Virus record (IMG/VR): IMGVR_UViG_3300048034_000619
Location: 1-26,675 of that record
Source of the DNA: a virus
DNA: 26,675 nucleotides
Reading direction: 5' to 3' (one strand)
In this document: positions 2,107 through 24,272 of the stretch, piece by piece
Position numbering within the stretch: the first letter of the stretch is position 1
Layout: the number at the start of each line of letters is the position of its first letter
The notes under the pieces: model-generated
What the model was told of the DNA's origin: nothing
Database searches by the model: none
What the model saw: the letters and a program-made list of their open reading frames with translations, nothing else
Made by a program: the position numbers and the translations under genes

Positions 2107-3972
2107 ATGGCTATTACAGTTTCAAAGGAGAGACTTAATGTTACAGAAATGGATTTTGATCAAATCAAAGCCAATCTTAAAACATTTTTACGAGCTCAAT
2201 CTACTCTTGCAGACTACGATTATGAAGGATCGGCTCTCAGCACTATTATTGATGTTCTTGCTTATAACACTTTCTATAACGCATTTAATGCTAATCTAAA
2301 TATTAATGAAATATTCCTAGATACAGCACAAGTAAGAAATAATGTAGTATCACATGCTAAGTCATTAGGGTACCTTCCTAGATCTACCACTTCGCCATTT
2401 GCGTCACTTAATGTAACAGTAAATGCTCCATCTGGTTCTCCTAGTTCTTTATCAATGGCAAAGGGTACAACCTTTCAAACAACAATTGATAATAAAAATT
2501 ATACTTTTATTAATCTGGAAGCTCAGACAATTCAACCAGTAAGTGGTGTTTATACCTTTAGTGGTGTACAGGTTAATCAAGGTACTTTAAGAACACAAGA
2601 ATTTATTGTTGACGATACATCAACTTCACAAAAGTATGAAATACCAGATATCAATATTGATACAGCTACTTTAATTGTAAAAGTAAAGACAAATGCCGGA
2701 TCATCTGATTTTGAAGTTCATACTCTTGTAACTAATATCGTTGATGTTACATCGGCCACAAACGCTTATTTCTTACAAGAAGGTGTAGATGGAAAATACG
2801 AAATTTATTTTGGTGATGGTGTCTTTGGTAAAAAGTTATCAGCAGGCAATATTGTACAAATAGAATATTTAATTACTGATGGAGAAGCTGCAAATAACTC
2901 AACTGTCTTTTCTCTTACAGGAAGTATTGAAGGTAATACAAACGTAAATATTACTTTAGCATCGGCTGCTGGAGGTGGTGCTGTTCGTGAAGCTGTAGAC
3001 TCTATTAAGTTTAATGCTCCACTTTCTTTCTTATCTCAAAACCGAGTTGTAACTGCTGATGATTATAAAGCTATTGTAAAAAATAACTATACAAATGCTG
3101 AAACAGTTTCAGTTTGGGGTGGAGAAGAACAAGCTGTACCAGAATATGGTAAAGTGTTTTTATCTATTAAACCCGGTAATGCCGAAACTTTAACAGAAGT
3201 TCAAAAGCAGTTTATTAAAGACTCTATTCTTAAAACTAAAAACTTAGTGTCTATTACACCGGAAATTGTTGACCCTGATTATACATACATTAAACTAGAA
3301 GTATTTTTTAAGTATGATCCAAACTTAACATCACTTACAGCTGGTGAATTAAAAGATAAGGTTATTGCTACAATCACAAACTATAATAATACTAATCTAA
3401 AAAAGTTTGATGGTGTGTTTAGAGCATCACAAGTAACAACTGCAGTAGATGCTACAAACCCAGCTATTCTAAATACTATTCAACGAGTATTTGTACAAAA
3501 AAGATTATATCCTACAATAGGAAGTGCAGAAAAATATACGCTTTCGTTTTCAAGTCCATTTTCTTCTAATCTTGCTACTGGTGATTCAGTTATTGATTCA
3601 AGTGAATTTATTATGAATGGCTTTAATCATAAGATGCAGGATATTCCAACAAGTGATCCAAATATTAGAACACTTCAACTTTACAGAATTTCAAATAATC
3701 AAAAGATTATTACAACAGTTGATGCAGGAACAGTCAATATTAACACAGGTACTGTAGTACTTACTAAGTTTAATCCTGACGGAGGCCTTGTAGGATCTAA
3801 TACATATATAACTGTAACAGGCACACCAAGTTCAAATGACTTGGCACCTAAACGTAACCAGTTACTTCAAATTGATTTACTACAAACTGCAGTTACACCA
3901 CAAATTGATGAAATTGCTACAGGATCAGTTATTGCAGGTATCGGTTACACAACTACGGCGAACAATAGTTAA
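2107..3972 (+). CDS. 6: Baseplate wedge protein gp6 (baseplate J-like)
   Basis: A 621-aa protein, close to T4 gp6 (660 aa). The N-terminus carries the family pattern: short helices (residues 13-35), then Y-D-Y-E-G-S-A-L-S-T-I-I-D-V-L-A-Y-N-T, followed by N-x-N-I-N-E-I-F-L-D-T-A and S-H-A-K-S-L-G-Y-x-P-R-S. These are typical of gp6/baseplate J proteins. A YEIYFGDGVFGKKL segment near residue 230 and a LSFLSQNRVVTADDY segment near 305 are also characteristic. gp6 forms the inner ring that joins the wedges around the hub. Ribosome site AAGGA lies 6 bases before the ATG. The stop overlaps the next ATG (TAATG), giving coupled translation. Confidence 0.9.
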   Translation: MAITVSKERLNVTEMDFDQIKANLKTFLRAQSTLADYDYEGSALSTIIDVLAYNTFYNAFNANLNINEIFLDTAQVRNNVVSHAKSLGYLPRSTTSPFASLNVTVNAPSGSPSSLSMAKGTTFQTTIDNKNYTFINLEAQTIQPVSGVYTFSGVQVNQGTLRTQEFIVDDTSTSQKYEIPDINIDTATLIVKVKTNAGSSDFEVHTLVTNIVDVTSATNAYFLQEGVDGKYEIYFGDGVFGKKLSAGNIVQIEYLITDGEAANNSTVFSLTGSIEGNTNVNITLASAAGGGAVREAVDSIKFNAPLSFLSQNRVVTADDYKAIVKNNYTNAETVSVWGGEEQAVPEYGKVFLSIKPGNAETLTEVQKQFIKDSILKTKNLVSITPEIVDPDYTYIKLEVFFKYDPNLTSLTAGELKDKVIATITNYNNTNLKKFDGVFRASQVTTAVDATNPAILNTIQRVFVQKRLYPTIGSAEKYTLSFSSPFSSNLATGDSVIDSSEFIMNGFNHKMQDIPTSDPNIRTLQLYRISNNQKIITTVDAGTVNINTGTVVLTKFNPDGGLVGSNTYITVTGTPSSNDLAPKRNQLLQIDLLQTAVTPQIDEIATGSVIAGIGYTTTANNS

Positions 3973-11730: not shown

Positions 11731-12923
11731 TGGCTGTGATTTCAACAAATACGTCAGACACTTTTGAGCAATGGAGAGTAAAAACAAATCAAGTTTCTAC
11801 TTTTATAGGCGATAGTGGAACACTTTCAGGTAGGTATACAGCAACAGATGTAGTTGCAGCTTTGAACGAAATTAAAACAACATCGACCTTTGATAATAAA
11901 ATCACTATTGCAGATCAAGTAGTCGATGGAACTACTGAATTAGCTGGTGATGCGGCTATTCTAAAAATTACAGCTGGTAGCGCAGATGTATTAACACTTA
12001 ATCAAACTGGTAATGTAACAGTTGCGGCTGATCTTTCTACTGTAGGAGCTATAAGTGCTGGTACAACACTTGGTGTAACTGGTAATGCTACAATTGGTGG
12101 TACTACTACATCTCAAGGTCAAGTAATTGCAAACGCTGGTATTGACTGTAATGGAACAATTGAAGTATCAAATAATTTAATAGTTGACGGTAATACTCAA
12201 TTAGGTAATCAAACTACTGATACAGTTGATATTCAAGGTAGTGCAGCTATTGCAAATGGACTTGTAGTAAACGGTGCAGTAACTACTCTTAATCAAGGGT
12301 TAACAGTATCTGGTGCTGCTCAGTTTAATAACGCATTTACTATGGGCGATACTCTTACAGTGGCAAATACGTTTAGTGCCAATGGTAATGTTGTACTTGG
12401 TAATTCAACTGCAGCTGATTTAGTTTCATTTGGATCTAGAGTAAATACTGCAATTGTACCTAATGCAAATAATAGTTATACACTAGGGACTAGTTCTCTT
12501 AAATGGAGTACAGTTCATGCAACTACCTTTAGTGGTACTGCAACTACCGCAAACTACGCTGACTTGGCTGAGCTTTATCTTTCTGATTTTGCATATGAAG
12601 CTGGTACTGTAGTAAGAGTCGGTGGTGAATTTGAAATTACTGCTACTGATGGTAATCATAATCATTCTGTACTTGGAGTTATCTCTGCTTATCCAGCATA
12701 CTTAATGAACAATCAACTAGAAAATGGTATTCCAGTCGCCTTGAAAGGACGTGTTCCTGTAAAAGTCGGTGGTACTGTTAAAAAGGGAGATCGTTTAGTA
12801 GGCGCACCTGAAGGTCATGGTGTAGTAGATAATGAGTCACCTCATGGATTTGCGGTAGCTCTTGAAGATTTTAAAGCTACTAAAAAGAATCCTACTGGTA
12901 TAGTAGAAGCCGTTATTCTTTAA
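11730..12923 (+). CDS. Tail fibre-like virion protein with beta-solenoid repeats
   Basis: A 397-aa protein. Residues 1-50 form an N-terminal attachment segment (NTSDTFEQWRVKTNQ, typical of marine phage fibres). Residues about 60-265 are short Thr/Gly/Asn repeats of the form V-x-G-N-x-x-L/I-G, as in trimeric beta-helical fibres. The C-terminal domain from about 274 begins ANYADLAELYLSD and contains VLGVISAYPAYLMN and GRVPVKVGG. I associate that domain with phage fibre C-terminal or autoproteolytic-chaperone-like domains, without certainty. The last gene of the + strand block, it ends head-on against the inverted island; the two stops overlap by four bases. Confidence 0.75.
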   Translation: MAVISTNTSDTFEQWRVKTNQVSTFIGDSGTLSGRYTATDVVAALNEIKTTSTFDNKITIADQVVDGTTELAGDAAILKITAGSADVLTLNQTGNVTVAADLSTVGAISAGTTLGVTGNATIGGTTTSQGQVIANAGIDCNGTIEVSNNLIVDGNTQLGNQTTDTVDIQGSAAIANGLVVNGAVTTLNQGLTVSGAAQFNNAFTMGDTLTVANTFSANGNVVLGNSTAADLVSFGSRVNTAIVPNANNSYTLGTSSLKWSTVHATTFSGTATTANYADLAELYLSDFAYEAGTVVRVGGEFEITATDGNHNHSVLGVISAYPAYLMNNQLENGIPVALKGRVPVKVGGTVKKGDRLVGAPEGHGVVDNESPHGFAVALEDFKATKKNPTGIVEAVIL

Positions 12924-13387
12924 TCATCATTATACAAATATAGATCTAGTGCGCAAGATACTCTTGTGTGAATTGCGGGTCTGACAGAGTGATATAGGTA
13001 ACTAGGAAAAACTAACATGTCTCCTGTTTTTGGTGCATGGTAAGTTGGATCAGTAGTTTTTCTAAATTTCATATCATAACCACGAGCTACATGTGGCCTA
13101 GGATCATAGAAAACTATTTCACCACCTGATTCAGGATTAGATTCTAAATAGATTACCATTGAAGCATGAGCACCAGAATGAGTATGAGTTTCCATACCTA
13201 CATTTTCATAACGGTTAATCCAAGATTTTATTTCATAATCTTTCCAGTCATGTATATTATGACCAGTCCAATCCTGAATAAAGTCATCAAAATAAAAGTA
13301 AGCGTCATCAATTAAAGATTGTGTTACTTTCTTTTGTAGTCCATCCATAACCCATTCATCATCAATAGGTATTATTTCAAACCTCAT
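12920..13387 (-). CDS. 2OG-Fe(II) oxygenase, HTH/PF13759-like (island, last gene)
   Basis: A 155-aa protein from the start at 13387 (MRFEIIPIDDEW). A longer form from 13444 would overlap the upstream gene by 68 bases; the shorter overlaps by 11. Numbered from 13387, the fold markers are H68-T-H70 in THTHSGAHASMVIYL, then S-G-G-E-I-V-F-Y-D-P-R, G-D-M-L-V-F-P-S-Y-L-Y-H133 and R142. This layout (HxH, sugar-phosphate-like DPR, FPSxLxH, distal Arg) is that of the TIGR02466/PF13759 putative 2OG-Fe(II) oxygenases frequent in marine phages. It would use O2 and 2-oxoglutarate to hydroxylate an unknown substrate. It is a paralogue of the gene at 16371-17027. Substrate and role are unknown; context suggests protein or peptide modification. 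Confidence 0.78.
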   Translation of the reverse strand: MRFEIIPIDDEWVMDGLQKKVTQSLIDDAYFYFDDFIQDWTGHNIHDWKDYEIKSWINRYENVGMETHTHSGAHASMVIYLESNPESGGEIVFYDPRPHVARGYDMKFRKTTDPTYHAPKTGDMLVFPSYLYHSVRPAIHTRVSCALDLYLYNDD

Positions 13388-13811
13388 TAATGTCGGATAC
13401 AGAAAATGTGTTCCCAATTTCAGCGTCATAGTATTTTCGGACATCTAGTACCATTCCTTCAGTTGTAAGTTTACCTTTATTGTTTGCACATACTACACTA
13501 ATTATATTATTGTATGTTACACTATCTTTTCTATATGGAACAAAGTAAGGATCCATTGGAAGAAGTTCTGGATCATTTAGAACATCATAAAAGTTTTCAT
13601 TATAGTCTTCCATTATCCAAAAAGCATAGCATATTGCTACCATATAAGATTTTGATGGATAGATCCAGCCAATATCTTTTTCTCTAAAATATCTGATAGC
13701 ATGGAAAGTAATATCTTCTGTGATTTCAATATCAACATCACCTAAGTCATCTTCATAATCTTTATTTAGTTTATGATATAACTTTTGTTTGATCTTCCAT
13801 TCTTGCATCAT
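13377..13811 (-). CDS. Unknown island protein, 144 aa
   Basis: I do not recognise this protein. It starts at MMQEWKIKQKLYHKL, inside the last codons of the upstream radical SAM gene (41-base overlap); GAGTGG lies just before the ATG pair. The N-terminal half is acidic and probably helical (KLNKDYEDDLGDVDIEITED). Residues 55-75 are aromatic (GWIYPSKSYMVAICYAFWIM) but too broken by Lys and Pro to call a membrane helix. The C-terminal third is mixed alpha/beta. There is no metal motif. Its tight coupling with a radical SAM gene and an oxygenase suggests a partner or substrate-recognition protein; that is inference only. Confidence 0.6.
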   Translation of the reverse strand: MMQEWKIKQKLYHKLNKDYEDDLGDVDIEITEDITFHAIRYFREKDIGWIYPSKSYMVAICYAFWIMEDYNENFYDVLNDPELLPMDPYFVPYRKDSVTYNNIISVVCANNKGKLTTEGMVLDVRKYYDAEIGNTFSVSDINEV

Positions 13812-14703
13812 ACCACTCTAGTAAATTTATATAGCCGTTACAGCTATTATCTAAATCTTTAACATATCTATAATGTTCTGTTAGACAGTGACCCATATAC
13901 TTACAATTATTGCAAATATCTGATAAAGTAATTTTTTCTTGATATGCCCATTGTTGATATGAACCGTAACTTGGTAATTCTAAAAAATATTCATTATCAT
14001 TCTTATCAAATTCTAATACACCAAACTTTCCGTTAGGAGTAATATACACATGGTCATCACTAAATGCATTATAAAGTTTATTGTAACTGTCTTCTATATT
14101 AAACAAATTAATAAATTCAAATTTCTTTTCTACATCTGATTCAAGCCATTTAATTACAAAGTCTTCAAAGTCTTTATGAGTTACATTATGAGCATTTGCT
14201 TGATTAGTCGAATAAGGTTTAATTTCTACAGAGGTAATTGATCTAACTATATTTAGATCTTTAATCATCTCATCAACATCCATTTTTAAAACTTCAGGAG
14301 AAGCTAATATGAGCACAGCAATTGGCTTAGTAGATAACAACATATTTTGATATACCAGGTCTGACTTTTCTCTAGCAGCAAAATCATATGATACACTAAG
14401 TGTTATGTTATCTGCTAAGAAACGATCATCAAGCTTTGAAAAATTAGTATTAATGTTAATACTACCACTATAGTGGCTCCTAATAACTGTAAGTATTTTA
14501 TCGTAGTAACTCCTTTTTAATGCTCCTATTTCTCCTCCATATAAGTCTATATGTTCAATTTTATCATACATTCTAACTTCAAATAATAATTCATCTAGTT
14601 TTTCTGGTTTTATCTTTTTTTGATCACCTAATTGTTCTGGTGTAAGATAACAGAAGTCACATCTGAAATTACAAAAATATGATGGATTAATAGAAATATT
14701 CAT
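13771..14703 (-). CDS. Radical SAM protein with reduced SPASM-like C-terminus
   Basis: A 310-aa protein. The radical SAM [4Fe-4S] motif is at the extreme N-terminus: C11-x3-C15-x2-C18 in NPSYFCNFRCDFCYL. An H-I-D-L-Y-G-G-E-I-G segment near 50 is the S-adenosylmethionine GGE motif. The C-terminus carries C264-x2-C267-x5-C273-x14-C288, the pattern of one SPASM auxiliary cluster. I see no Gly-x4-Cys of the first auxiliary cluster, so it probably holds two rather than three clusters. It overlaps the upstream radical SAM gene by four bases (ATGA), and their N-termini are alike (MxxxIxPxxxCNFxCxFC), suggesting duplication. Reaction and substrate are unknown; SPASM relatives mostly modify peptides. 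Confidence 0.88.
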   Translation of the reverse strand: MNISINPSYFCNFRCDFCYLTPEQLGDQKKIKPEKLDELLFEVRMYDKIEHIDLYGGEIGALKRSYYDKILTVIRSHYSGSININTNFSKLDDRFLADNITLSVSYDFAAREKSDLVYQNMLLSTKPIAVLILASPEVLKMDVDEMIKDLNIVRSITSVEIKPYSTNQANAHNVTHKDFEDFVIKWLESDVEKKFEFINLFNIEDSYNKLYNAFSDDHVYITPNGKFGVLEFDKNDNEYFLELPSYGSYQQWAYQEKITLSDICNNCKYMGHCLTEHYRYVKDLDNSCNGYINLLEWYDARMEDQTKVIS

Positions 14704-15749
14704 AATATCTTAAATTGTGCACTTTCATTTTCATAAGGAGTCATTTGTATACCTTCCATATCGTTTGACGCCAAAATAGCTGGTCCTAAAAGTTTCATAT
14801 TATAACAGTGTTCTTCAACCATATTATGTTTCTTAAGATCTTTAATAGTTTTCTTACACCCATTACATATCTGAAACATAGGACAAGTATAACATCCTTT
14901 CTTTAAACTATTTAGTTCAAAAGAATCTGCAAGTGGAGTAGCAAATCCACCATTCATCTCAAAGTCCCAATCAATAGCTTTTTCTTTATCATCTCCAAAA
15001 GCACCACAAGAATAATAGTCTCCTTCTGGCTGTATAGTTCTAATATGAGAATCACAAGTACGTGTAAGAGGACATATTGTAGCTTCTCCACGTAATCTAT
15101 TCATCATTTGTTGTGTATTGTGTTCCCATTCTGCTAAACCAGCTTGCCATATTTTTACATATTGATAATATATTTTGGCCAGCATATATGGTTTATCTTG
15201 TTCTCCAGATGCCATTGCATAATTAACTTTGCATACAACATCCATTTTTTTAGCTAGCTCTACTGTTCTTATTACTGAGTCTTCGTTTTCTTCTGTAATA
15301 ACAGCAATAAACGAAGGTCTATACCCACAATGTTCTAATACAGCATTTGAGCAATTCCAAAAGTCTTCTTCAGTAAATACAGAATAGTCACCTTTAAGTC
15401 TTCCACTTCCATATTGAAATGACGTAGCAATTCCAACTCTTGGATTCTGAAAGACATCCATCCATTTCTTTGGATTCTTATAAAACGGCCAAAGGTTTGT
15501 AGTTAAAGATATATTCGCAGGTAAATTATTGTCATCACAGTACTTAATTATTTCTCTATAGTACTGTGGATCCATCATTAATGGATCACCACCATTTACA
15601 ATAATAGTTTTAGTTTCTGGGAATCTATCTAAAAACTGATATATTTTAATAAGATCTAGCTTTGAAGCTTTATCTTCTACGAGTTTAGTTGAAGAGCAAA
15701 AAGTACATTTAAAATTACATAACTCAGTTGGCTTAATTATTAAATCCAT
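14700..15749 (-). CDS. Radical SAM/SPASM protein
   Basis: A 349-aa protein with C11-x3-C15-x2-C18 (PTELCNFKCTFCSS) at the very N-terminus and a V-N-G-G-D-P-L-M motif near 55 for S-adenosylmethionine binding. The C-terminal third is a SPASM domain: a Cys, then G-D-Y-Y-S-C (the Gly-x4-Cys of auxiliary cluster I), then C-Y-T-C-P-M-F-Q-I-C-N-G-C and a late Cys in EEHCYN. Three iron-sulfur clusters are therefore expected. SPASM enzymes typically modify ribosomal peptides (thioether, C-C crosslinks) or proteins. The start codon lies inside the end of a 37-aa ORF and has no strong ribosome site, so it probably depends on coupled translation. ATGA joins it to the next gene. Confidence 0.9.
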   Translation of the reverse strand: MDLIIKPTELCNFKCTFCSSTKLVEDKASKLDLIKIYQFLDRFPETKTIIVNGGDPLMMDPQYYREIIKYCDDNNLPANISLTTNLWPFYKNPKKWMDVFQNPRVGIATSFQYGSGRLKGDYSVFTEEDFWNCSNAVLEHCGYRPSFIAVITEENEDSVIRTVELAKKMDVVCKVNYAMASGEQDKPYMLAKIYYQYVKIWQAGLAEWEHNTQQMMNRLRGEATICPLTRTCDSHIRTIQPEGDYYSCGAFGDDKEKAIDWDFEMNGGFATPLADSFELNSLKKGCYTCPMFQICNGCKKTIKDLKKHNMVEEHCYNMKLLGPAILASNDMEGIQMTPYENESAQFKIL

Positions 15750-15853
15750 GATATTCCATTTAGTATTCTGGCCGCATGTCTAGGAGAATAATTGTTGATA
15801 CAAATATACTTAACAAGACTACGTCTATAGTGCCAAAGTAATACTTCATCCAT
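15740..15853 (-). CDS. Small ORF, 37 aa, coupled between oxygenase and radical SAM genes
   Basis: Reading the 103-base gap on the - strand gives an open frame that starts on the last base of the upstream oxygenase stop (TAATG at 15855-15851) and ends 10 bases inside the radical SAM gene. It begins MDEVLLWHYRRSLVKYICIN and ends NYSPRHAARILNGISWI. It is basic, with one Cys and several Trp, Tyr and His. The exact fill of an otherwise unexplained gap and stop/start overlaps at both ends argue that it is translated. It could be a short peptide substrate, a leader that couples translation, or a remnant. Nothing identifies its function. Confidence 0.45.
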   Translation of the reverse strand: MDEVLLWHYRRSLVKYICINNYSPRHAARILNGISWI

Positions 15854-16356
15854 TAGTATAGTGCCGGTATCAAATATTCAAATGATAATACTCTTCTTTC
15901 TCCAGTTTTGTGAGCTGCTCTGTGTTCAAAACATTTTTTCTGATTTAGCCAAACAAAATCTCTTCGTTTTGGATATAATGTAAAATGGTAATCATGTGTT
16001 TTAACTTGAATATTATTACCATTGTGTTTTGTATTATCATCTAAATAAATTAGTATATTAGAATTAAATTTATTACTATCTTCAAAATCGTTATGCCATT
16101 CTCGGGATCCATGATCTACACCACTCCACATAGCACAGTCTTTCATTTCAAAATCATCAAATAGTTTAGAAACATAATTATCAGCCAGCCATTTATGAAT
16201 AATTGCTAGATCAAACTCAGCTTCAGGAGCTGTCCATAGATTTTCTGGTTGAGTGCAGTCTACAAAATTAAATTTATCAAATCGATCTATATCTAAGTTA
16301 CTTGGTAATGTTCCATGCCAGTAGCCGTCAATAAAGAACGTCTGCTCGTCAGTCAT
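15853..16356 (-). CDS. 2OG-Fe(II) oxygenase, HxD type
   Basis: A 167-aa protein from the ATG at 16356; the in-frame TTG at 16368 would start inside the TTGGGAA ribosome site. The motif W-S-G-V-D-x5-E-W-H88-N-D90 gives the HxD half of the facial triad. A distal His (H145 or H149 in CFEHRAAHKTGERR) and Arg154/155 would complete the Fe(II) and 2-oxoglutarate site. The family is the double-stranded beta-helix oxygenases similar to prolyl hydroxylases. It is clearly related to the gene at 17307-17819 (same W-x-G-V-D...W-H-x-D block). The substrate is unknown. The stop overlaps the start of the 37-aa ORF. Confidence 0.75.
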   Translation of the reverse strand: MTDEQTFFIDGYWHGTLPSNLDIDRFDKFNFVDCTQPENLWTAPEAEFDLAIIHKWLADNYVSKLFDDFEMKDCAMWSGVDHGSREWHNDFEDSNKFNSNILIYLDDNTKHNGNNIQVKTHDYHFTLYPKRRDFVWLNQKKCFEHRAAHKTGERRVLSFEYLIPALY

Positions 16357-16370
16357 ATTGGTTCCCAAAG

Positions 16371-17027
16371 TTACACCGTATGTTGAGTTCTCTTATTCCT
16401 TAACTCGTCACCTTTATTTACCACTTGTGCATTTACTACAAGTGTAAGTCTTTCTTCATTACCATGATAGTGTGTAACTTCATGCCACAAAAATTGAGGA
16501 GCAATAACAACCATTCCTCGTTTTGACTTGATCTTTTCTAACTTAGACCCACCAAAGTAATAGTTTCTTTGCCACCTAGGATCATACAAAGCTAGTTCTC
16601 CGCCTTCATCTTCTTCTACATCGTTAAAATATATGCAAGCAAAAGCATCATCAGAATAATGTGTATGGGCTCCAAGTCTAAATCCATTCTTCATTAAGTT
16701 AATTTTACAAGAATCTAATTCAACATCAAGAATCATGGTTTCGGTATTTGACTCTGATAATGTATCAATATTGTTATATGCTAAAGCTAAAAAGCCTTTT
16801 TTAACTTCATCAATAAGTTCTGACATCTCAGGGCATTGACCTTCAACAATAGCATCAATAACAATATTCTCATTGCCATCTTGGTATTCAGCATGATCAA
16901 TATCTACATTAGATAAAAAATCTAAATGCTGAGCTCGTAAGAAACTTTCAACTGCTTGAAGTTTTTCTTCACTAATATCTAATTGCTTTTGGTAAATATT
17001 AGTTGGGTATATCTGTTTAATTGCCAT
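16371..17027 (-). CDS. 2OG-Fe(II) oxygenase, TIGR02466/PF13759-like
   Basis: A 218-aa protein. The N-terminus I-Y-P-T-N-I-Y-Q-K-Q-L is the typical family opening (FPTPIY in relatives). The catalytic region reads G-A-H121-T-H123-Y-S-D-D, A-C-I-Y-F-N, G-G-E-L-A-L-Y-D-P-R, G-M-V-V-I-A-P-Q-F-L-W-H182, then R193. It is the full-length paralogue of the gene at 12920. An exact TATAAATA on the - strand lies 33 bases before the ATG (TATTTATA at 17061-17068), so it may have its own late transcript. Hydroxylation of an unknown target is expected. Confidence 0.82.
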   Translation of the reverse strand: MAIKQIYPTNIYQKQLDISEEKLQAVESFLRAQHLDFLSNVDIDHAEYQDGNENIVIDAIVEGQCPEMSELIDEVKKGFLALAYNNIDTLSESNTETMILDVELDSCKINLMKNGFRLGAHTHYSDDAFACIYFNDVEEDEGGELALYDPRWQRNYYFGGSKLEKIKSKRGMVVIAPQFLWHEVTHYHGNEERLTLVVNAQVVNKGDELRNKRTQHTV

Positions 17028-17029
17028 TT

Positions 17030-17335
17030 TTAATTCTCATCATTAGGTTTCTCATACCCATATTTATACACGCACTCTTGTTCATAGTTAGTTTCACTAA
17101 TAGAATCTACACCTTCTATATCACAAATTTGCCTGTTGCAAACACGGATCTCTTCTTTTATCATATTTGCATATGGTTCTAGGTTATCAATCATTTTAAG
17201 ATACATTTCGTATTTATCTTTTACGTCCTGAAAGTCATGCATCTTAGTTATCCATAAGTTATACAACTCGGCTGTAAGATCTCTTTCTTTACATAGAATT
17301 GTTTTCTTATTCAGTACGTCCTGTAGAGTAGTCAA
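17030..17335 (-). CDS. Small helical island protein, 101 aa, probable TTG start
   Basis: I do not recognise this protein. The first codon is TTG at 17335, which follows a strong AGGAGG about 10 bases upstream, inside the end of the preceding oxygenase gene (29-base overlap). The next in-frame ATG (Met32) would remove a third of the protein. It is mostly helix, Lys/Glu-rich and probably coiled coil over residues 1-75. Three Cys (two in CNRQIC, one near the end) and an acidic tail follow. It ends two bases before the next gene. It could be a partner or adaptor; nothing more can be said. Confidence 0.55.
   Translation of the reverse strand: MTTLQDVLNKKTILCKERDLTAELYNLWITKMHDFQDVKDKYEMYLKMIDNLEPYANMIKEEIRVCNRQICDIEGVDSISETNYEQECVYKYGYEKPNDEN
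17061..17068 (-). promoter_or_regulatory. T4-type late promoter inside the island
   Basis: The + strand reads TATTTATA, so the - strand has an exact TATAAATA ending 33 bases before the ATG at 17027. The site is within the 3' end of the 101-aa gene. The spacing equals that of the gp8 promoter at 4879. It would give late expression of the distal half of the island. Confidence 0.6.
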
Positions 17336-17819
17336 AAGAACATATCCTCCTTCTTATTTTTGTATCATTAGCTTTATGCCAAAATCCTCTAAGATTTGAA
17401 ACCATAAAAAGATCACCAGCTATCGGTTGGTACATTGCTGTTTTATCACTATCCCATTTAAAATTAATTTGACCGCCGCTTTCTAAATAAGTATGATCTA
17501 AATAGTATAAGAAAAATACATCATAGTCTTCAAACATATCTGTATGCCAACCTTGATTATCTTTATCTACTCCATCCCATACTAGATACTTATTAAAAAT
17601 AGCTTCAGGCCATTCTGGTAATATATACTTATGATAAAGTGATTGGCCAAATAGGTTTAATTTATTAGCTAAAAGATTATCAATATCTTCTTTACCATTA
17701 TCTCTTGCTCTTTCTTCAGTATTGAGAAGTTTATGGTCGTTAATCTTTATTAAATCTAGGCCGTCAGGCTCATAGAACTTGACGTATCCCTTTGTATATA
17801 TGTCTGAGACATTAAACAT
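17307..17819 (-). CDS. 2OG-Fe(II) oxygenase, HxD type
   Basis: A 170-aa protein. The ATG at 17819 is supported by GGAGGT nine bases upstream, although it overlaps the B12-type radical SAM gene by 64 bases. Catalytic markers: W-D-G-V-D-x5-G-W-H92-T-D94, F-F-L-Y-Y-L, S-G-G-Q-I-N-F, A-G-D-L-F-M-V-S-N, then H148 and the R156-R158 run. The HxD...H triad and distal Arg fit 2-oxoglutarate/Fe(II) oxygenases of the prolyl-hydroxylase class. It is a paralogue of the gene at 15853. The substrate is unknown. Confidence 0.8.
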   Translation of the reverse strand: MFNVSDIYTKGYVKFYEPDGLDLIKINDHKLLNTEERARDNGKEDIDNLLANKLNLFGQSLYHKYILPEWPEAIFNKYLVWDGVDKDNQGWHTDMFEDYDVFFLYYLDHTYLESGGQINFKWDSDKTAMYQPIAGDLFMVSNLRGFWHKANDTKIRRRICSFDYSTGRTE

Positions 17820-19483
17820 TTCTTACTTACCTCCGATATAATATATAGTCTGTTTCTTTCTAAAAATTCATTAATAGTATCCACTCTAAATTTACCACCT
17901 AGCTGTCGGATACTACGGGGCGGAGTGTTAGGATCAAATATATCTTTTATTTCATCTCCTATCTCCTTAAAATCTGATAGATTTATTATAACACAAAACA
18001 CGTGCTTTGTAAACCCCTGAGGTGAAATTAAATCAATAAAAAGTGGATAAAATTTCTGTAGGATATAATTTGCGGCATTATTCATAAACCACATTTCCAT
18101 CATCTCTTCTTCTGTAAAAGAGTAGCATGAACTAATTGTTTTGAAATATGTTTTCTTATTTTTATATAGGCTATTCCAATTATCACTACCATCTTCATCT
18201 ACAATATCACTATAGACTTCCACAGTCTGGATCTCATGCTTATCTTTATATTCTTGTGAGTTTAGCCGTGAATCAGGTAAGAACATATAATCATGTCTAA
18301 ATGATCCCCATGCCTGAAAGTTCCATATAACTTCCATCTCATTGTAAAAGTCTTCAAGAGTAGAACCTGGCATAGCAAGGATAAGTTCTAAAGCTGGTAC
18401 AGGGAATCCATGTTCTTGACATCTTTTATTAATATATCTACTTAACTCTAGTTTATTTTCTGTTGTTAGATCTATCCTATCAGCTAATTTCATTGCTTCT
18501 TCTGAGATACTTTGAATTGACACTGTAGGTACAACTGAAATGTATTCAGTTTCTCCCCACATATCAGTTCCACCTTCTGACTTAGAATGTTTTTCTGGTC
18601 CAGTGCCTACAATATCAAACCAACGATCTATAAGTCTTTTACGTCTATCTAGTGATTTAGATTTCATTGTAGATATATCAGTAAGATTAAAATTGTTTTC
18701 CCAGCCATAAGAAAATATTTCTAGATCTCTATCTTCAAAGGCACCAAAGTTTGCATCAGTTAAATAAGCATCTCTATATCCAGCTTTTTTCATAGCATCA
18801 ATATCTCTTTTTACAATTGAGACATCTTTTTTATAGATCTTAGTATTAATACCTCCACCCCATTCACAAAAGACACATTTATAAGGGCAACCTCTTGTAG
18901 TTTCAATAATAATAAAAGGTTCCATCTTATTATCACGGGCATAGTCTACAGATTCTTTTAAGTATTCTTGGTGATCTTCATATACTGAATAATCTTCTTT
19001 TGCTAGGTCATGAACTCGGCCACCTATAGACCTTAGTTCCCATGCAATCTTATCTGGCTCTAATGTACCTTCAATATAATTGTTAATAAGATCTTCCATA
19101 AATGGTTCACCAGGCTTAGTTGGCTGACAAATAAAATCATATTGTGGTCTAGCTTCTAAGAGTTCTGGTTCATTAGTGCCAATATGTGGACCACCAAGTA
19201 CAAGTATTTTTTCGGGATGATCTTCTTTTATTTGTTTAGATAACCCATCAATAATTGTATAGTTCCAAGCATAAGAACTAAACATAATAATATCAGCTTC
19301 AATTATCTCTTTAATAACTTCATCAAAAGATTCGTACTTATCCCATTTGTAAGGCGCAGGAATCCAGTTAACCTGATTAGCATATTTGCCAAACCGATTA
19401 TAGTAACTCTGTACTATGAGGTATGTCATATTGTTGGCCAAAGACCAATCAGCATGAGGTGGATTAATGAAGGCTATCTGCAT
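17756..19483 (-). CDS. Cobalamin-binding-type radical SAM protein
   Basis: A 575-aa protein. Residues 1-150 look like a Rossmann-type B12-binding domain: IAFINPPHADWSLANN at the start, ADIIMFSSYAWNY, and V-L-G-G-P-H-I-G-T near 95-103. The radical SAM motif follows: T-T-R-G-C199-P-Y-K-C203-V-F-C206-E-W-G-G-G. The CxxxCxxC-E-W-G-G-G form after an N-terminal B12 domain is typical of class B radical SAM enzymes, which methylate unactivated carbon or phosphorus centres or do other B12-assisted chemistry. The last 200 residues are an unassigned helical domain. No DxHxxG is present, as is normal in this class. Without B12 supplied by the host it would be inactive if it follows that class. Confidence 0.85.
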   Translation of the reverse strand: MQIAFINPPHADWSLANNMTYLIVQSYYNRFGKYANQVNWIPAPYKWDKYESFDEVIKEIIEADIIMFSSYAWNYTIIDGLSKQIKEDHPEKILVLGGPHIGTNEPELLEARPQYDFICQPTKPGEPFMEDLINNYIEGTLEPDKIAWELRSIGGRVHDLAKEDYSVYEDHQEYLKESVDYARDNKMEPFIIIETTRGCPYKCVFCEWGGGINTKIYKKDVSIVKRDIDAMKKAGYRDAYLTDANFGAFEDRDLEIFSYGWENNFNLTDISTMKSKSLDRRKRLIDRWFDIVGTGPEKHSKSEGGTDMWGETEYISVVPTVSIQSISEEAMKLADRIDLTTENKLELSRYINKRCQEHGFPVPALELILAMPGSTLEDFYNEMEVIWNFQAWGSFRHDYMFLPDSRLNSQEYKDKHEIQTVEVYSDIVDEDGSDNWNSLYKNKKTYFKTISSCYSFTEEEMMEMWFMNNAANYILQKFYPLFIDLISPQGFTKHVFCVIINLSDFKEIGDEIKDIFDPNTPPRSIRQLGGKFRVDTINEFLERNRLYIISEVSKKCLMSQTYIQRDTSSSMSLTA

Positions 19484-20471
19484 ATCTAAAAGTCGCCTTA
19501 AATACGCATTCGTCCATGTCTTGTTCTATATGCTTATAGTCTTCTTTAATAAAACATGATAATGGACAACGCTGAAAATATTCACATTCAAAACAATTAT
19601 ACTTGTCTAGAAAGTTCTCAACAATAGTAGGACCACCAAGTTCTTCGGTCTGTGCTTCTTTAAGAAATACAGAACCTGAACATCCCTGAGGCTTAGCACC
19701 ATCGGGCATGATAGTAAAAGAGTTGCCTCTAGTACATATCATTTTATTTGCTGGTTTATCATTTACAAAGTGATCCACGTTTAAACACTTAGGATACTTT
19801 TCTACTAATACTTTATAAAATTCAAATAGATCTCTTTCACTTGGCATTAATACTCTTGAAGTAGCTACTGATGGAAGAAAATGATCAAAGTCACATGTAT
19901 AGTTTTGGTACAATGCATCAAAAAGATAATCACCAGCCACTATACGATCTATATTCTGTTTAGTTGCAACTAGGGAAACCATTGTAATACGATCTTGAAA
20001 ATATCTTAAATTGCGTTCAAATAATTTTAGATCGGCTTTACTAAATCTTCCAGCTGGGTCATAACTAATAGAAAAATTCAGATCATTTTGAGCAAGAAAA
20101 TACATTACTTCTGTATATCTTGTAAAGACTAAATTAGTAATAAAATTAAAATGAACTTCTGCATCTGTATTGCTATCAATATAGAGCATAAAGTCATCAT
20201 ATATGTCTAGGAATCCTTTATCAATCCATTCGTCTTGAAAAAGTTCTCCACCCATTAGATGAATTTTATATGCTTGTTTTCTAGGATTGTTGTTAATCCA
20301 ATCAATAATAGGATCTACTTTAGCAATGATCTCTTTACGGCTAGCACCTACTATATTATTATGGTCTTGTGGGCAGAATACACACTTAAGATTACAGTGT
20401 TCAAATAAGCATACTACTATCTCACCATAACCAACAATCTTTGTTTCAATCAAATCATAAATATCATTCAT
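19464..20471 (-). CDS. Radical SAM/SPASM protein
   Basis: A 335-aa protein with C26-x3-C30-x2-C33 (FEHCNLKCVFCPQDH) and an H-L-M-G-G-E-L-F motif near 75 for S-adenosylmethionine. The C-terminal SPASM-like part has M-I-C-T-R-G-N-S-F, P-D-G-A-K-P-Q-G-C and C-F-E-C-E-Y-F-Q-R-C-P-L-S-C plus a final Cys in DECVF, so two auxiliary clusters are likely. The ATG sits on the last base of the upstream stop (TAATG), giving strict coupling to the 379-aa protein. The end overlaps the next gene by 20 bases. Peptide or protein modification is the family tendency; the actual substrate is not known. Confidence 0.88.
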   Translation of the reverse strand: MNDIYDLIETKIVGYGEIVVCLFEHCNLKCVFCPQDHNNIVGASRKEIIAKVDPIIDWINNNPRKQAYKIHLMGGELFQDEWIDKGFLDIYDDFMLYIDSNTDAEVHFNFITNLVFTRYTEVMYFLAQNDLNFSISYDPAGRFSKADLKLFERNLRYFQDRITMVSLVATKQNIDRIVAGDYLFDALYQNYTCDFDHFLPSVATSRVLMPSERDLFEFYKVLVEKYPKCLNVDHFVNDKPANKMICTRGNSFTIMPDGAKPQGCSGSVFLKEAQTEELGGPTIVENFLDKYNCFECEYFQRCPLSCFIKEDYKHIEQDMDECVFKATFRYADSLH

Positions 20472-21610
20472 TACATTATCGCATATTGATCTCTAAAATC
20501 CTTATTACCATCTAATATTGCTTGTACAAAGTAATGATTTACTGTTTCTAAATCAATAGAAAAGAAAGAACCGGCTGAGTGTTTATATTCAGATTCTACT
20601 TTAATAATAGCATCTAACTGCTTATCAGTCATTTCATCGCCTTGGATGTACTCAATAAAATCTAGTTTAGAAATATCAGCATCTATAAATGATAATTGAT
20701 TAGCTTCATCCCAGCTTTCACCCATCATTACAGTAAACTTAGCAAAAGACTGAATATGTTTAGGTGTAAGATTATTAAAATGAATGTTCTTACCAGCAGT
20801 TGGTTTAGCCAAATACGGTGTAGCCCATATGTCTGGGTTCATAAAGATTGTTGGAAACTCAGAATCATCTTCTAAGATTTCATCATAGTTTGTAAAGTCA
20901 TACTCTTTATTTAAATTTAGCTTTGAGGTAAACCTTTTTGTAAGAAGATGAGCAAAGAATGTTTCTTTAAGCTCACCAAGATACTTTTCTAAATCTTTCT
21001 TAATTAACATAGTAAGTACTGATTTTAGTTCTTTTTTCATCTTACCATTTGCTAAGTAAGTTGCTAATAGGAACTCCATACTAATTGATGATTTATTTTC
21101 AGTAATAAATTTTTTACGGTCATCGGCTGATGGTTTGGCAGAGTTATCAAATATCTTACCAAAGTTTTCAATATCAATTTCATATGGGTTATCAGTGTTA
21201 CCATTGTTTGAAACAAATCTAGCTTGGCCAAAGATTTTATGTTTAAAGACCATAGACTCTAAAAGATCAGTAGCTGCAGCTGTATTAGTTTTCTTAAAAA
21301 TTATATTAAACCAAAGAGACATAATTCTTTTAAATGCTTCACCATCACAATAGATGATAATTCGTTTACCTGTTTGGTCTGTTCGATTACCAAGGGTTGT
21401 AAACATATCCATTGAATCTATAAATGCAGTATTTTTTGATCCTAATAAATTCTTAACTTCAAATGAATGAGCAATAAGCACTCCACTTGTAAGTGTATCT
21501 AAATCTTCTGATACTTTATGGCCGTGTTCTTTTGATACCACGACACGATCAGTAAATACATCAATAATATGGTCTGTCGCTACGTATACTTTCTTAAACA
21601 GATGTAGCAT
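20471..21610 (-). CDS. Unknown island protein, 379 aa
   Basis: I do not recognise this protein. ATG at 21610 (MLHLFKKVYVATDH) is chosen because GGAG lies about 7 bases upstream and the overlap with the preceding gene is then 17 bases; an in-frame start at 21646 would overlap by 53. Residues 1-105 look like an alpha/beta domain with strands VYVATDHIIDVF, RVVVSK, GVLIAHSFEV and RIIIYCDGEAF. The rest is mainly helical and charged, with an aromatic block near 250-280. There is one Cys and no signal or membrane segment. It is translated in strict coupling with a SPASM gene, so it may be an essential partner of that enzyme. That is inference. Confidence 0.7.
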   Translation of the reverse strand: MLHLFKKVYVATDHIIDVFTDRVVVSKEHGHKVSEDLDTLTSGVLIAHSFEVKNLLGSKNTAFIDSMDMFTTLGNRTDQTGKRIIIYCDGEAFKRIMSLWFNIIFKKTNTAAATDLLESMVFKHKIFGQARFVSNNGNTDNPYEIDIENFGKIFDNSAKPSADDRKKFITENKSSISMEFLLATYLANGKMKKELKSVLTMLIKKDLEKYLGELKETFFAHLLTKRFTSKLNLNKEYDFTNYDEILEDDSEFPTIFMNPDIWATPYLAKPTAGKNIHFNNLTPKHIQSFAKFTVMMGESWDEANQLSFIDADISKLDFIEYIQGDEMTDKQLDAIIKVESEYKHSAGSFFSIDLETVNHYFVQAILDGNKDFRDQYAIM

Positions 21611-22265
21611 TTTTGTTCTCCTGTATTGCACCAGTAGCGATGCCATGTGTTAATAGAAACATGGGATTATTTTCGTTAGCCCAGTAACTGTATAAATTAT
21701 TTCCTTTGAACATATACTCGTTAAAATAAGACTTGTAATATGTTTTGTGTTCTTCAATAACATTACCATAAAACATAAAGAATCTTTCGTTCTTTAATAA
21801 GCTTACAAAGTTAACTCCTTCAAGTTCTTTTGTACTATCCTCTGGAAATGATGTTACATAATCTTTAAATTCTGGTGACTCAATAGTATATAAGTTGTAA
21901 AGAGAAAGTGAGTCAAGTTTTTTAGCCCATATTTTTAGAATATCTAGATTAGCATCAATAAATTCTTTTTCAACTAATTCAGTTATACCTTTCATTTCAA
22001 GAAGTAATTCTATTACTCTTGTTTCTAAAATTGGAATATTTACTATAAAGTTAGCATGGAGATAAGCTTGTGTCATCTCATCAAACCCTTCTTGAGTAGT
22101 AAACCCAATATCACAAGGTAATTCTAAATTGCCAAGATAAGTTAATAACTTTGAACCCTGTAATTTAGATTCTTCATAATGAATCATATAAAATGTTTCT
22201 TTATCATTAAAAAATAATTTAAGCTCATCTAACTCAATAGGAGCTGTAGTTTCAATCAATGGCAT
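21594..22265 (-). CDS. Unknown island protein, 223 aa, next to the CHxS protein
   Basis: I do not recognise this protein. It is acidic, Leu/Glu/Phe/Tyr-rich and mainly helical, with no metal motif and a single Cys near residue 51. Notable segments: FYMIHYEESKLQGSKLL, GMKGITELVEKEF-like helices near 90-110 and a Tyr/Asn-rich part near 185-200. It starts three bases after the stop of the CHxS-tail protein and overlaps the 379-aa gene by 17 bases. Its fixed place between a presumed substrate and the rest of the island suggests a binding or escort protein. No similarity to HxsD or to RiPP recognition elements is evident by eye. Confidence 0.7.
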   Translation of the reverse strand: MPLIETTAPIELDELKLFFNDKETFYMIHYEESKLQGSKLLTYLGNLELPCDIGFTTQEGFDEMTQAYLHANFIVNIPILETRVIELLLEMKGITELVEKEFIDANLDILKIWAKKLDSLSLYNLYTIESPEFKDYVTSFPEDSTKELEGVNFVSLLKNERFFMFYGNVIEEHKTYYKSYFNEYMFKGNNLYSYWANENNPMFLLTHGIATGAIQENKNATSV

Positions 22266-22268
22266 AAT

Positions 22269-22838
22269 TTATCGTCTCCCTCTTGAACCATGACATGAAG
22301 AATGACATGATGCATGACATATATCAATTTGTACTGTTGCTGTATTACCTCTAGATGCACTATATTGAGCACGTAAATCAGCAAACTTTTGTTCTAATAC
22401 GTTATCATCAATTATTTGGCCTGTTGAAATACTAACTGCTCTAGCTTGTAATGATTGTTGATATGAAGTATTCATGTAAGCAATTCCTGATACATTAGTA
22501 ATAATGCCTGGTGATGCCTGAGTACCAGTATTACCACCAGCACCAGTAACATTTAATAATGCATTTAAATTACGAATTGATGAATAGGATACAACTTCAG
22601 CTTCTAATACATCTTGGATACCTGAGGCATCAATAAGTTCACCGTTATTTTTAATAGAGTTACCATTTACTCCAATAGCTCGGCCCGATGTTGTTCCACC
22701 AAAATATGCTGTACTAAACTGCGAAAATGGAACGTTATTTGTTCCATATGAAATACCTGCATTAGCTGTTGGAGGTACATAATCTGCAAAACGGTTTACT
22801 ACGTTTTGTTCTTCTACTGGGTTAGTTAATGATACCAT
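22269..22838 (-). CDS. Putative modified virion protein with C-terminal Cys-His-Xaa-Ser repeats
   Basis: A 189-aa protein. Residues 1-172 are Gly/Asn/Ser/Thr-rich with no Cys, His or Trp and contain VPFSQFSTAYFGG, a pattern I associate with marine phage fibre-tip or fibre-associated proteins (weak). Residues 174-189 read CHASCHSSCHGSRGRR: three perfect C-H-x-S units followed by a basic end. All Cys and His of the protein are in this run. GAGG lies about 7 bases before the ATG. The gene begins inside the end of a full SPASM radical SAM gene (17-base overlap), with a possible late promoter 89 bases upstream. The likely role is substrate or precursor of radical SAM chemistry, or a metal-binding fibre tip. 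It is partly like HxsA but uses a tetrad, not a triplet. Confidence 0.75.
   Translation of the reverse strand: MVSLTNPVEEQNVVNRFADYVPPTANAGISYGTNNVPFSQFSTAYFGGTTSGRAIGVNGNSIKNNGELIDASGIQDVLEAEVVSYSSIRNLNALLNVTGAGGNTGTQASPGIITNVSGIAYMNTSYQQSLQARAVSISTGQIIDDNVLEQKFADLRAQYSASRGNTATVQIDICHASCHSSCHGSRGRR
22284..22319 (-). repeat. Three 12-bp direct repeats coding for CHxS
   Basis: On the - strand the 36 bases are three units of TGTCAT-NNN-TCA (variable codons GCA, TCT, GGT), coding for CHAS, CHSS and CHGS. The same Cys, His and Ser codons are used in each unit, indicating recent repeat expansion or strong constraint. They sit 15 bases before the stop codon. Confidence 0.9.
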
Positions 22839-23859
22839 TATATTCCTCGTTTAATTCTTTCATTAAAAATCTTGGAGCTCCACAAATATCGCCTTCCCAC
22901 GCCAATTGATGACAGTCTCCTTTACAGTATTTATACACGTTACACTCATAACATCGTGGATCTCTTTGCAATTCTTCCATGATAACATTACATCTTTTTG
23001 GTGCATTTATAACAACTTCAGGAGGTTCCATAATATGACCAAAGGCTGATGTGGGTGCAGAGTTAGGACATCCAGCAATAGATCCATCACCATTTATTGT
23101 AAACAGTTTTTGCTCACAGTCTCTACAGAATGTACCAGCACCTGTATATCCAGTTTCAAATTTAGAATATACATTTTCCATAAACTCATTATCAAACCAA
23201 TTTCTTGCATCATTGTCTTTTATAAACTTATGCATATCAAGAAAGTATTTTTGAAGAGCTAAATTAGATGGAAATACTGGATTGCGTGTTGCATTACCAT
23301 CATAAGTAATACGTTCAAGGGCCATTTCCTGTACACCTAAACTTTTTACATAATGCATTAATTTAGCTGGACCCATTTCAATAGTATCATTTGTAAGTGA
23401 TACAAATAGTTTAATAGTATATCCACGGTCTAATAGTAACTTAACATTTGATTCCCATAAAGCTCTTTGTTTTTCGTTATCAAATCGTATTGTTGGATCC
23501 CATGAAGTACCCATACGTTTTTCACAAACTTCGTCTAAAAATGCTAATCGTTTTTCTGTTAACTTAAGTACAAGGTTAGATGTAATACCATAAGTAGCTG
23601 AACCATTCCATTTTTCTTGAGTCAATTCATAGAATCTCCATAAGTCTTCTACGGGAGCAAGAAAAGGCTCACCTCCGTGAAACTCAAAATGAGTATTCAT
23701 TTGAGGTCTTAAGTCTTTTAATTCATTACACCACTTTGCAACAGCATCAGGATTAAAATAAATTTTAGCTCCGTTTATACCATTTGTAAAGCAGTGGTTA
23801 CAATTGAGATTACATGTCTCCGTCGTTTTGACGTAGATCATAGTATCATTATTTAGCAT
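22822..23859 (-). CDS. Radical SAM/SPASM maturase next to CHxS protein
   Basis: A 345-aa protein with C16-x3-C20-x2-C23 (TTETCNLNCNHCFTNG), H-G-G-E-P-F at 61-66, and a complete SPASM domain. The latter includes Gly-rich G-D-G-S-I-A-G-C, then C303-x2-C306-x5-C312-x3-C316 and C326, implying two auxiliary [4Fe-4S] clusters besides the SAM cluster. This is the architecture of peptide maturases (anSME, sactipeptide, ranthipeptide, HxsB-like). The start at 23859 has AGGA 5-6 bases upstream. A TATAAATA on the - strand lies 34 bases upstream. The stop lies inside the first codons of the CHxS protein gene, a classic maturase-substrate pairing, but activity is not shown by sequence. Confidence 0.9.
   Translation of the reverse strand: MLNNDTMIYVKTTETCNLNCNHCFTNGINGAKIYFNPDAVAKWCNELKDLRPQMNTHFEFHGGEPFLAPVEDLWRFYELTQEKWNGSATYGITSNLVLKLTEKRLAFLDEVCEKRMGTSWDPTIRFDNEKQRALWESNVKLLLDRGYTIKLFVSLTNDTIEMGPAKLMHYVKSLGVQEMALERITYDGNATRNPVFPSNLALQKYFLDMHKFIKDNDARNWFDNEFMENVYSKFETGYTGAGTFCRDCEQKLFTINGDGSIAGCPNSAPTSAFGHIMEPPEVVINAPKRCNVIMEELQRDPRCYECNVYKYCKGDCHQLAWEGDICGAPRFLMKELNEEYNGIIN
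22928..22935 (-). promoter_or_regulatory. Possible T4-type late promoter before the CHxS protein
   Basis: The + strand reads TATTTATA (an exact TATAAATA on the - strand), inside the radical SAM gene and 89 bases before the CHxS start at 22838. The spacing is longer than the 33-41 bases seen elsewhere, so it is less certain. It would give extra copies of the CHxS protein relative to its maturase. Confidence 0.4.
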
Positions 23860-24272
23860 TCAATTCCTATTGATAACATAGTGGAGTCATACATATTTAT
23901 AGCCTCATGAGAAGTGCCAGCTGGAATAGAAATATACTCTCCTGCTTCTATAACATAATGGATATTATCAACAATCATCATTTTTTTACCTTCAATAACA
24001 TATATAAATACGTCTATAGGATCAGTATGCATCGCAAATGATTTAGAATCCTGAGGAGAAATATATAAATGTACGGTATGTTTTTTAGTTATACCAAGCT
24101 TTTGAGTGATACTTTTATACTCATCTTCCAGCCCTTCAATCTTAACTGTAAATTTAGCTTCAGCAATATATCTACTTGTAGACAAAAGAGGGATCTCATG
24201 GTCTCTTCCAATGTCATCAATGTAAAAAGATTTTGAACCTTTATGTAATATGTCGATCATTCTAAAATCCAA
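23853..24272 (-). CDS. Single-domain cupin, first gene of the island
   Basis: A 139-aa protein. Cupin motif 2 is complete: G111-x5-P117-x-G119-x2-H122-x3-N126 (GEYISIPAGTSHEAIN). Motif 1 is partial, with H82-x-D84 and E94-G95 (MHTDPIDVFIYVIEGK). One metal-bound domain is likely (H82, D84, H122). Functions range from isomerase or dioxygenase to ligand sensor; none can be chosen. It overlaps the SPASM maturase by seven bases and is first behind a divergent promoter region, so it may be an enzyme of the pathway or a chaperone. The ribosome site is weak. Confidence 0.75.
   Translation of the reverse strand: MDFRMIDILHKGSKSFYIDDIGRDHEIPLLSTSRYIAEAKFTVKIEGLEDEYKSITQKLGITKKHTVHLYISPQDSKSFAMHTDPIDVFIYVIEGKKMMIVDNIHYVIEAGEYISIPAGTSHEAINMYDSTMLSIGIEC
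23894..23901 (-). promoter_or_regulatory. T4-type late promoter before the SPASM maturase
   Basis: The + strand reads TATTTATA, an exact TATAAATA on the - strand, ending 34 bases before the ATG at 23859. Spacing matches the gp8 and oxygenase sites. It would place maturase and CHxS protein under late (virion-time) control. Confidence 0.65.

Follow-up and report, generated by a model that had tools for sequence, protein, structure and literature searches.

Most known cases of modification by radical SAM enzymes concern small secreted peptides, besides a few cellular enzymes. In the His-Xaa-Ser system, HxsA, found with HxsB and HxsC, has C-terminal His/Ser repeats beside radical SAM/SPASM enzymes. 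The CXXX-repeat maturase (TIGR04115) and the ranthipeptide maturase PapB (NF047865) are likewise SPASM enzymes, and their substrates have Cys at 4-residue spacing. In phages, enzymes of this kind were listed with no substrate assigned in the papers on FLC6, SURPRISE13 and RP12/RP31, and RSF1 and RP31 combine similar enzyme genes with MS data. In the open-access literature that we searched, we found no account of the tail motif described below or of its pairing with the enzymes.

Here we analysed a viral DNA stretch of 26,675 nucleotides, called the window, in which one protein ends in a repeated Cys-His tail. We consider it probable that this is a phage protein of the virion or baseplate-fibre region, whose invariant C-terminal tail is recognised and modified by a neighbouring cassette of iron enzymes. 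The substrate would then likely be a phage virion protein. The locus shares C-terminal repeats beside radical SAM/SPASM genes with the His-Xaa-Ser system and differs from it in the Cys-His core, the replaceable Ser, the putative phage structural-region substrate and the presence of a cupin and the protein p223 in the set.

The adjoining enzyme, rSAM-A, can be classed as a radical SAM/SPASM enzyme by its CxxxCxxC motif, its SPASM cysteines and a TIGR04085 score over the cut-off (27.8 bits vs 27), and it matches phrog_1802 with E 4.5e-54. The curated NCBIfam models of the described pathways gave a different picture. The HxsA model (TIGR03979) had no match in the window protein and reached 16 bits (cut-off 121.65, E 0.009) in a bacterial relative, L281, that ends in four HSS repeats. 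The HxsB model scored 27.4 bits against a cut-off of 370, the HxsC model 13.0-28.1 bits in the cassette enzymes against 267.9, the PapB model 35.8 bits against 340 and the CXXX-repeat model 19.5 bits against 350; some further NCBIfam models likewise stayed far under theirs. The tail system is outside the HxsA, CXXX-repeat and PapB families as NCBIfam defines them, and membership of the HxsA system or of the PapB ranthipeptides is not supported at scores so far below the curated cut-offs; the initial annotation had named HxsA and the ranthipeptides for comparison. A phage-borne Hxs or ranthipeptide-type RiPP pathway could account for the HxS triplets, the CxxxC spacing, the SPASM enzyme and the weak HxsA match of L281. 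However, the HxsA, HxsB, PapB and CXXX scores and the replaceable Ser make such a pathway very improbable. We see in the system a form of radical SAM protein maturation, which might make up a class of its own should its chemistry prove distinct.

The tail protein and its neighbouring genes

On its plus strand, the window carries T4-like baseplate genes, with gp6-like domains at 2107-3972. The tail gene belongs to a long block on the minus strand that spans 12920-24272 (Table 1). The neighbouring genes are fibre/baseplate genes, which agrees with the setting implied by the initial annotation. At 2-274, a partial ORF resembles a PAAR-type tail-spike tip protein.

Table 1. The tail gene and its cassette, in window coordinates.
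Feature	Position	Strand	Remarks
Tail protein, 189 aa	22269..22838	minus	body = residues 1-173, then C-terminal CHASCHSSCHGSRGRR; ATG start
16-residue tail (CHxS)3-RGRR	22272..22319	minus	low-confidence/flexible past last beta strand (AlphaFold model)
rSAM-A, radical SAM/SPASM enzyme, 345 aa	22822..23859	minus	directly upstream of tail gene, 17-nt overlap
Cupin, 139 aa	23853..24272	minus	Cupin_2 6.1e-10, JmjC_2 3.6e-9
p223, phrog_20767 protein of unknown function	21594..22265	minus	accompanies the tail more regularly than any other gene
p391, conserved cassette protein of unknown function	20471..21646	minus	in 72/95 phage tail loci
rSAM-B, second radical SAM protein	19464..20471	minus	phrog_1802 8.3e-31
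B12-binding radical SAM protein (KedN5-like)	17756..19483	minus	in 33/95 phage tail loci
2OG-Fe(II) oxygenase-like protein	17307..17819	minus	PF13640 3.3e-4
2OG-Fe(II) oxygenase	16371..17027	minus	PF13640 1.3e-6, phrog_81 4.5e-17
rSAM-C, radical SAM protein	14700..15749	minus	phrog_1802 3.5e-54; SPASM 23.7 bits, just below cut-off
rSAM-D, radical SAM protein	13771..14703	minus	phrog_1802 1.9e-36
h144, small conserved cassette protein	13377..13811	minus	retained in 6/8 bacterial cassettes
2OG-Fe(II) oxygenase	12920..13444	minus	PF13759 1.5e-13

The translated ORF ends in ...VQIDICHASCHSSCHGSRGRR, and its only Cys and His residues are C174/H175, C178/H179 and C182/H183. On the coding strand, the repeat reads TGTCATGCATCA TGTCATTCTTCA TGTCATGGTTCA, that is, TGTCAT-NNN-TCA three times. 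Both the confinement of Cys and His to one C-terminal run and the DNA repeat had been noted in the initial annotation and are correct. In the AlphaFold model of the protein (mean pLDDT 85.5), the tail has low confidence and projects from the folded body, as would be expected of a substrate peptide. Structure searches with the body found no PDB chain at Z of at least 2 and, in BFVD, matched its own family only. Three proteins of 504-660 aa from Myoviridae sp. ctijX18 (BFVD A0A8S5USJ7, A0A8S5USJ8 and A0A8S5USV2) have the same body fold.

A tblastn search of phages and IMG/VR with the window protein gave zero relatives because the bodies diverge; relatives were reached via rSAM-A similarity and DNA patterns, the tail alone being too short for tblastn. 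The bodies align only weakly, to 21% identity, and keep a helix-then-strand pattern before the tail. The sole database match of the tail is phrog_35144 (PHROGs, function unknown), in which profile positions 159-186 of 186 match residues 162-189 of the window protein with E 2.3e-6. This cluster has the same tail at the profile end but is nameless and holds no record of the tail, the enzymes or the bacteria. A nearly invariant tail on very divergent bodies might mainly be a docking tag, a C-terminal counterpart of a RiPP recognition sequence that brings the enzymes to residues modified in the body, and for a site of modification, constancy like that of the R-x-R-R end is unusual. Three repeated Cys-His pairs, however, seldom make up recognition sequences, and the homologue alignment leaves few conserved body positions (P37, R89), so that we regard a mere docking role as quite unlikely.

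Both enzymes next to the tail gene have kept their catalytic signatures. The CxxxCxxC and SPASM cysteines of rSAM-A are invariant in 67 non-redundant homologues and the H-x-D...H iron-binding triad of the cupin in 73, which suggests, as far as sequence can tell, that the enzymes are active. The model of p223 (pLDDT 93.8) had no clear fold match; its best structure match, at Z 4.5, was not taken as evidence. The h144 family, which has no Pfam match, is common to phage and bacterial cassettes, and the KedN5-like B12 radical SAM protein (methyltransferase type) is present also in L248 and L250.

Conservation of the tail and its linkage to the enzyme genes

The rSAM-A search yielded 80 viral loci and seven isolated-phage records. 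Among 84 loci fetched purely by similarity to this radical SAM gene (80 from IMG/VR and four from isolates), 57 contain a tail-ending ORF within the fetched stretch (53/80 in IMG/VR and 4/4 isolate regions). Searched as DNA, the pattern CHxxCHxxRGRR-stop occurs in at least 120 stretches of IMG/VR. A degenerate-DNA scan of a 257-Gb prokaryote genome collection returned 23 matches, with true in-frame C-terminal tails at 15 loci, and the chance background is therefore small. The tail was found in marine phages and in the isolated jumbo phages Atu_ph07, Phosso, SURPRISE13, FLC6 and pPa_SNUABM_DT01.

We compared 127 distinct 48-nt tail DNAs, some of which had been found with a pattern that prescribed the second half of the tail. 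Every one of them keeps the three Cys, the three His and all Arg residues of the R-x-R-R end, and the codons vary, with third bases mixed about 50:50 (TGT/TGC, CAT/CAC) while the residues stay the same. Moreover, pN/pS is 0.21 in the tail vs 0.42 in the 25 codons preceding it. The tail is a conserved element under strong constraint as protein, far beyond chance. The three near-identical DNA units of the window gene might by themselves suggest a chance repeat or low-complexity slippage, but this is refuted by the distinct tails that spell the same residues with freely varying codons, and its probability is practically nil. Substitutions at the Ser positions, to N, A or Q, occur in 9, 26 and 15 of the 127 tail DNAs, and such swaps beside fixed C, H and R speak against a Ser-dependent HxS chemistry, which the HxS triplets named in the initial annotation might suggest. 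The number of units, raised as a question in the initial annotation, is three in every confirmed phage tail and varies only in the bacterial relatives. Two apparent exceptions in phages were rejected, L046 as a regex artefact and L109 as a chance ORF.

The companions of the tail were counted in the 95 phage tail loci that reach 11.5 kb or more. We found p223 in 92, rSAM-A in 88 (a count biased upward, as some loci were fetched with rSAM-A), the cupin in 80 and rSAM-B in 80; all eight bacterial tail loci have rSAM-A and p223. In 27 cases, the stretch fetched by pattern did not include rSAM-A; in 20 of these, the gene is present in the complete record, and the other records are fragments. Conversely, 27 rSAM-A loci had no tail in the fetched stretch; for eight of them the complete record encodes two tail proteins in tandem, and the remaining records are fragments of 6.5-46 kb. 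The genes come in two orders. Either the tail gene follows rSAM-A immediately, in many cases with an overlap, or it lies some kilobases off, singly or as one of two tail genes. The proposed tie between the tail and a SPASM gene is thereby supported in phage and bacterial loci alike, in that the enzyme is nearly always in the same record and usually directly upstream, whereas strict adjacency fails where the genes are kilobases apart. A retained SPASM gene with a lost tail, which the initial annotation had named as evidence against its proposal, was encountered only in fragmentary records and in L282, a GC-rich bacterial assembly. In L282, an assembly of doubtful quality, the tail is missing beside intact p223 and rSAM-A, and this counts against our preferred explanation.

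The tail, an active-looking rSAM-A, an Fe-cupin and p223 travel together across phages and predatory bacteria, the tail following very divergent bodies. Two further features speak for our preferred explanation: in some phages a tandem tail-protein pair is accompanied by one rSAM-A, and the rSAM-A and tail reading frames overlap in most cases. Together, the shared tail and the adjoining radical-SAM/iron-oxygenase block point to a chemical modification, so far undescribed, of an attachment or tail protein, although rSAM-A may act elsewhere, given the several other radical SAM enzymes in the cassette. Loci that encode two tail-bearing proteins in tandem for one rSAM-A include L047, L048, L053, L064 and L065.

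Variant tails in Bdellovibrionota and the candidate chemistry

Nine of the 15 loci with true tails that the DNA pattern found in GTDB genomes are in Bdellovibrionota assemblies. A profile search of 368 Bdellovibrionota genomes recovered those nine and two divergent tails, and a p223 search, with hits in 17 genomes, added five further variant tails; tails occur in 16 of the 368 genomes. On long contigs, the cassette is flanked by cell genes (an S20-like ribosomal protein, cytochromes, transporters) and is therefore chromosomal, so phage mis-binning was ruled out there; it is likely for L206, L212, L215, L216, L220 and L227.

The variant tails in Bdellovibrionota are YCHGNFPPPCHGSRGRR, YCHTNVPTPPPCHASRGRR, YCHSNHCSHSNHGSRGRR and WCHSSHSSHSSHSSRGRR; CHGNFPPPCHGSRGRR and CHSSHSSHSSHSSRGRR likewise stand for variant forms of these relatives. 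Common to all tails, phage and bacterial, are the first Cys-His and the final H-x-[SA/N]-R-x-R-R. The variant WCHSSHSSHSSHSSRGRR, encoded at 4310-4918 of L281, has one Cys besides its HSS repeats and may link the tail family to the His-Xaa-Ser system. In the rSAM-A tree, bacteria with strict tails group with phages and those with variant tails lie in another clade, which fits a co-evolution of enzyme and tail, although this is a single split in the tree. A second rSAM-A paralogue, which belongs to the variant-tail clade, lies at 13307-14452 of L248; the only tail found in this genome is of the strict type.

The variants bear on what the tail does. As the single-Cys forms speak against it as a general function, we do not favour c-type haem binding (CxxxCH), which we also considered. 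A metal-binding or disulfide motif that is left unmodified would be another reading: Cys and His at i, i+4 and i+8 form a natural metal site that could bind Zn or Fe, perhaps at a trimeric tip, His is retained even in the single-Cys variant CHSSHSSHSSHSS and Ser is not essential. His-bound metal is found in phage tips, as in T4 gp37 and PAAR proteins. The cassette would then modify something else and be nearby merely through the clustering of fibre genes. This reading explains neither the invariant R-x-R-R end nor why, in two genomic settings that are unrelated, the tail is so tightly linked to rSAM-A, the cupin and p223, and we judge it unlikely.

Under the modification that we prefer, rSAM-A, aided by p223 and the cupin, would act on the Cys and His of the tail and not on Ser, and the Arg end (R-x-R-R) would serve as the recognition handle. 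The product might be a tip that is rigid, cross-linked or able to hold a metal, and the protein so modified would work at a surface structure contacting the Gram-negative cell envelope. Because Ser is replaceable and His is more constant than Cys, we consider Cys/His chemistry or a product that holds a metal more likely than Ser-based cross-links.

Fibre loci and the phage particle

The Atu_ph07 homologue, gp170 (296 aa), has the C-terminal end CHSSCHASCHNSRSRR, with the C-terminal peptide CHSSCHASCHNSR(SRR). The virion proteome of this phage was described as three clusters of MS-detected proteins, one of them CDS 170-215 (PMC6102473). As far as the cluster boundary given in that source goes, gp170 is the first gene of this MS-defined virion cluster, and the numbering agrees in that gp215 is the major head protein in both sources. 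This strongly suggests that gp170 is present in the Atu_ph07 particle.

The bacterial cassettes are tied to fibre genes as well. A gene for an S74 (endosialidase chaperone) fibre lies within 10 kb of the cassette in 12 of the 13 genomes with enough contig, against 0.45 expected (P about 2e-18, or 5e-16 with near-copies merged). In Bdellovibrio bacteriovorus, S74 fibres are known prey-contact adhesins, and the Mosaic adhesive trimer (MAT) fibres are S74-chaperone proteins that resemble phage tail fibres (PMC10769870). The MAT study describes neither radical SAM enzymes nor a pilin, whereas most cassette-adjoining S74 proteins have a prepilin-type N-methylation motif at the N-terminus. The bacterial tail proteins have no obvious signal peptide, and their surface location is putative.

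The association of tail and enzymes is stable in phages and in predatory bacteria, two different settings that are each tied to fibres. The same cassette and tail grammar recur in chromosomes of predatory bacteria beside phage-like fibre genes. A wider reading, to which we give somewhat less than even credence, is a general protein-modification system, so far undescribed, in which an Fe-cupin, rSAM-A, p223 and other radical SAM enzymes would build a special Cys-His tip at the C-terminal end of a protein that makes surface contact. Jumbo phages, T4-like phages and predatory bacteria, the last in their fibre loci, would share this system and use it in engaging or breaching the Gram-negative envelope. 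If the tail is modified, a new type of post-translational chemistry would operate at the interface of phage and host (and of predator and prey), and this would give a reason for the long runs of radical SAM/2OG-oxygenase genes in many large phages, hitherto listed without a role.

The Bdellovibrionota S74-chaperone proteins of L248, L249, L251, L252, L277-L280 and L283 have 345-526 aa, most with the prepilin N-methylation motif (PF07963 with PF13884). Their genes are followed by one for a protein of about 190 aa that ends in RHWVKIK or similar and then by one for a protein of about 120 aa that begins MNRR, a gene set that looks like a pilin-anchored fibre module.
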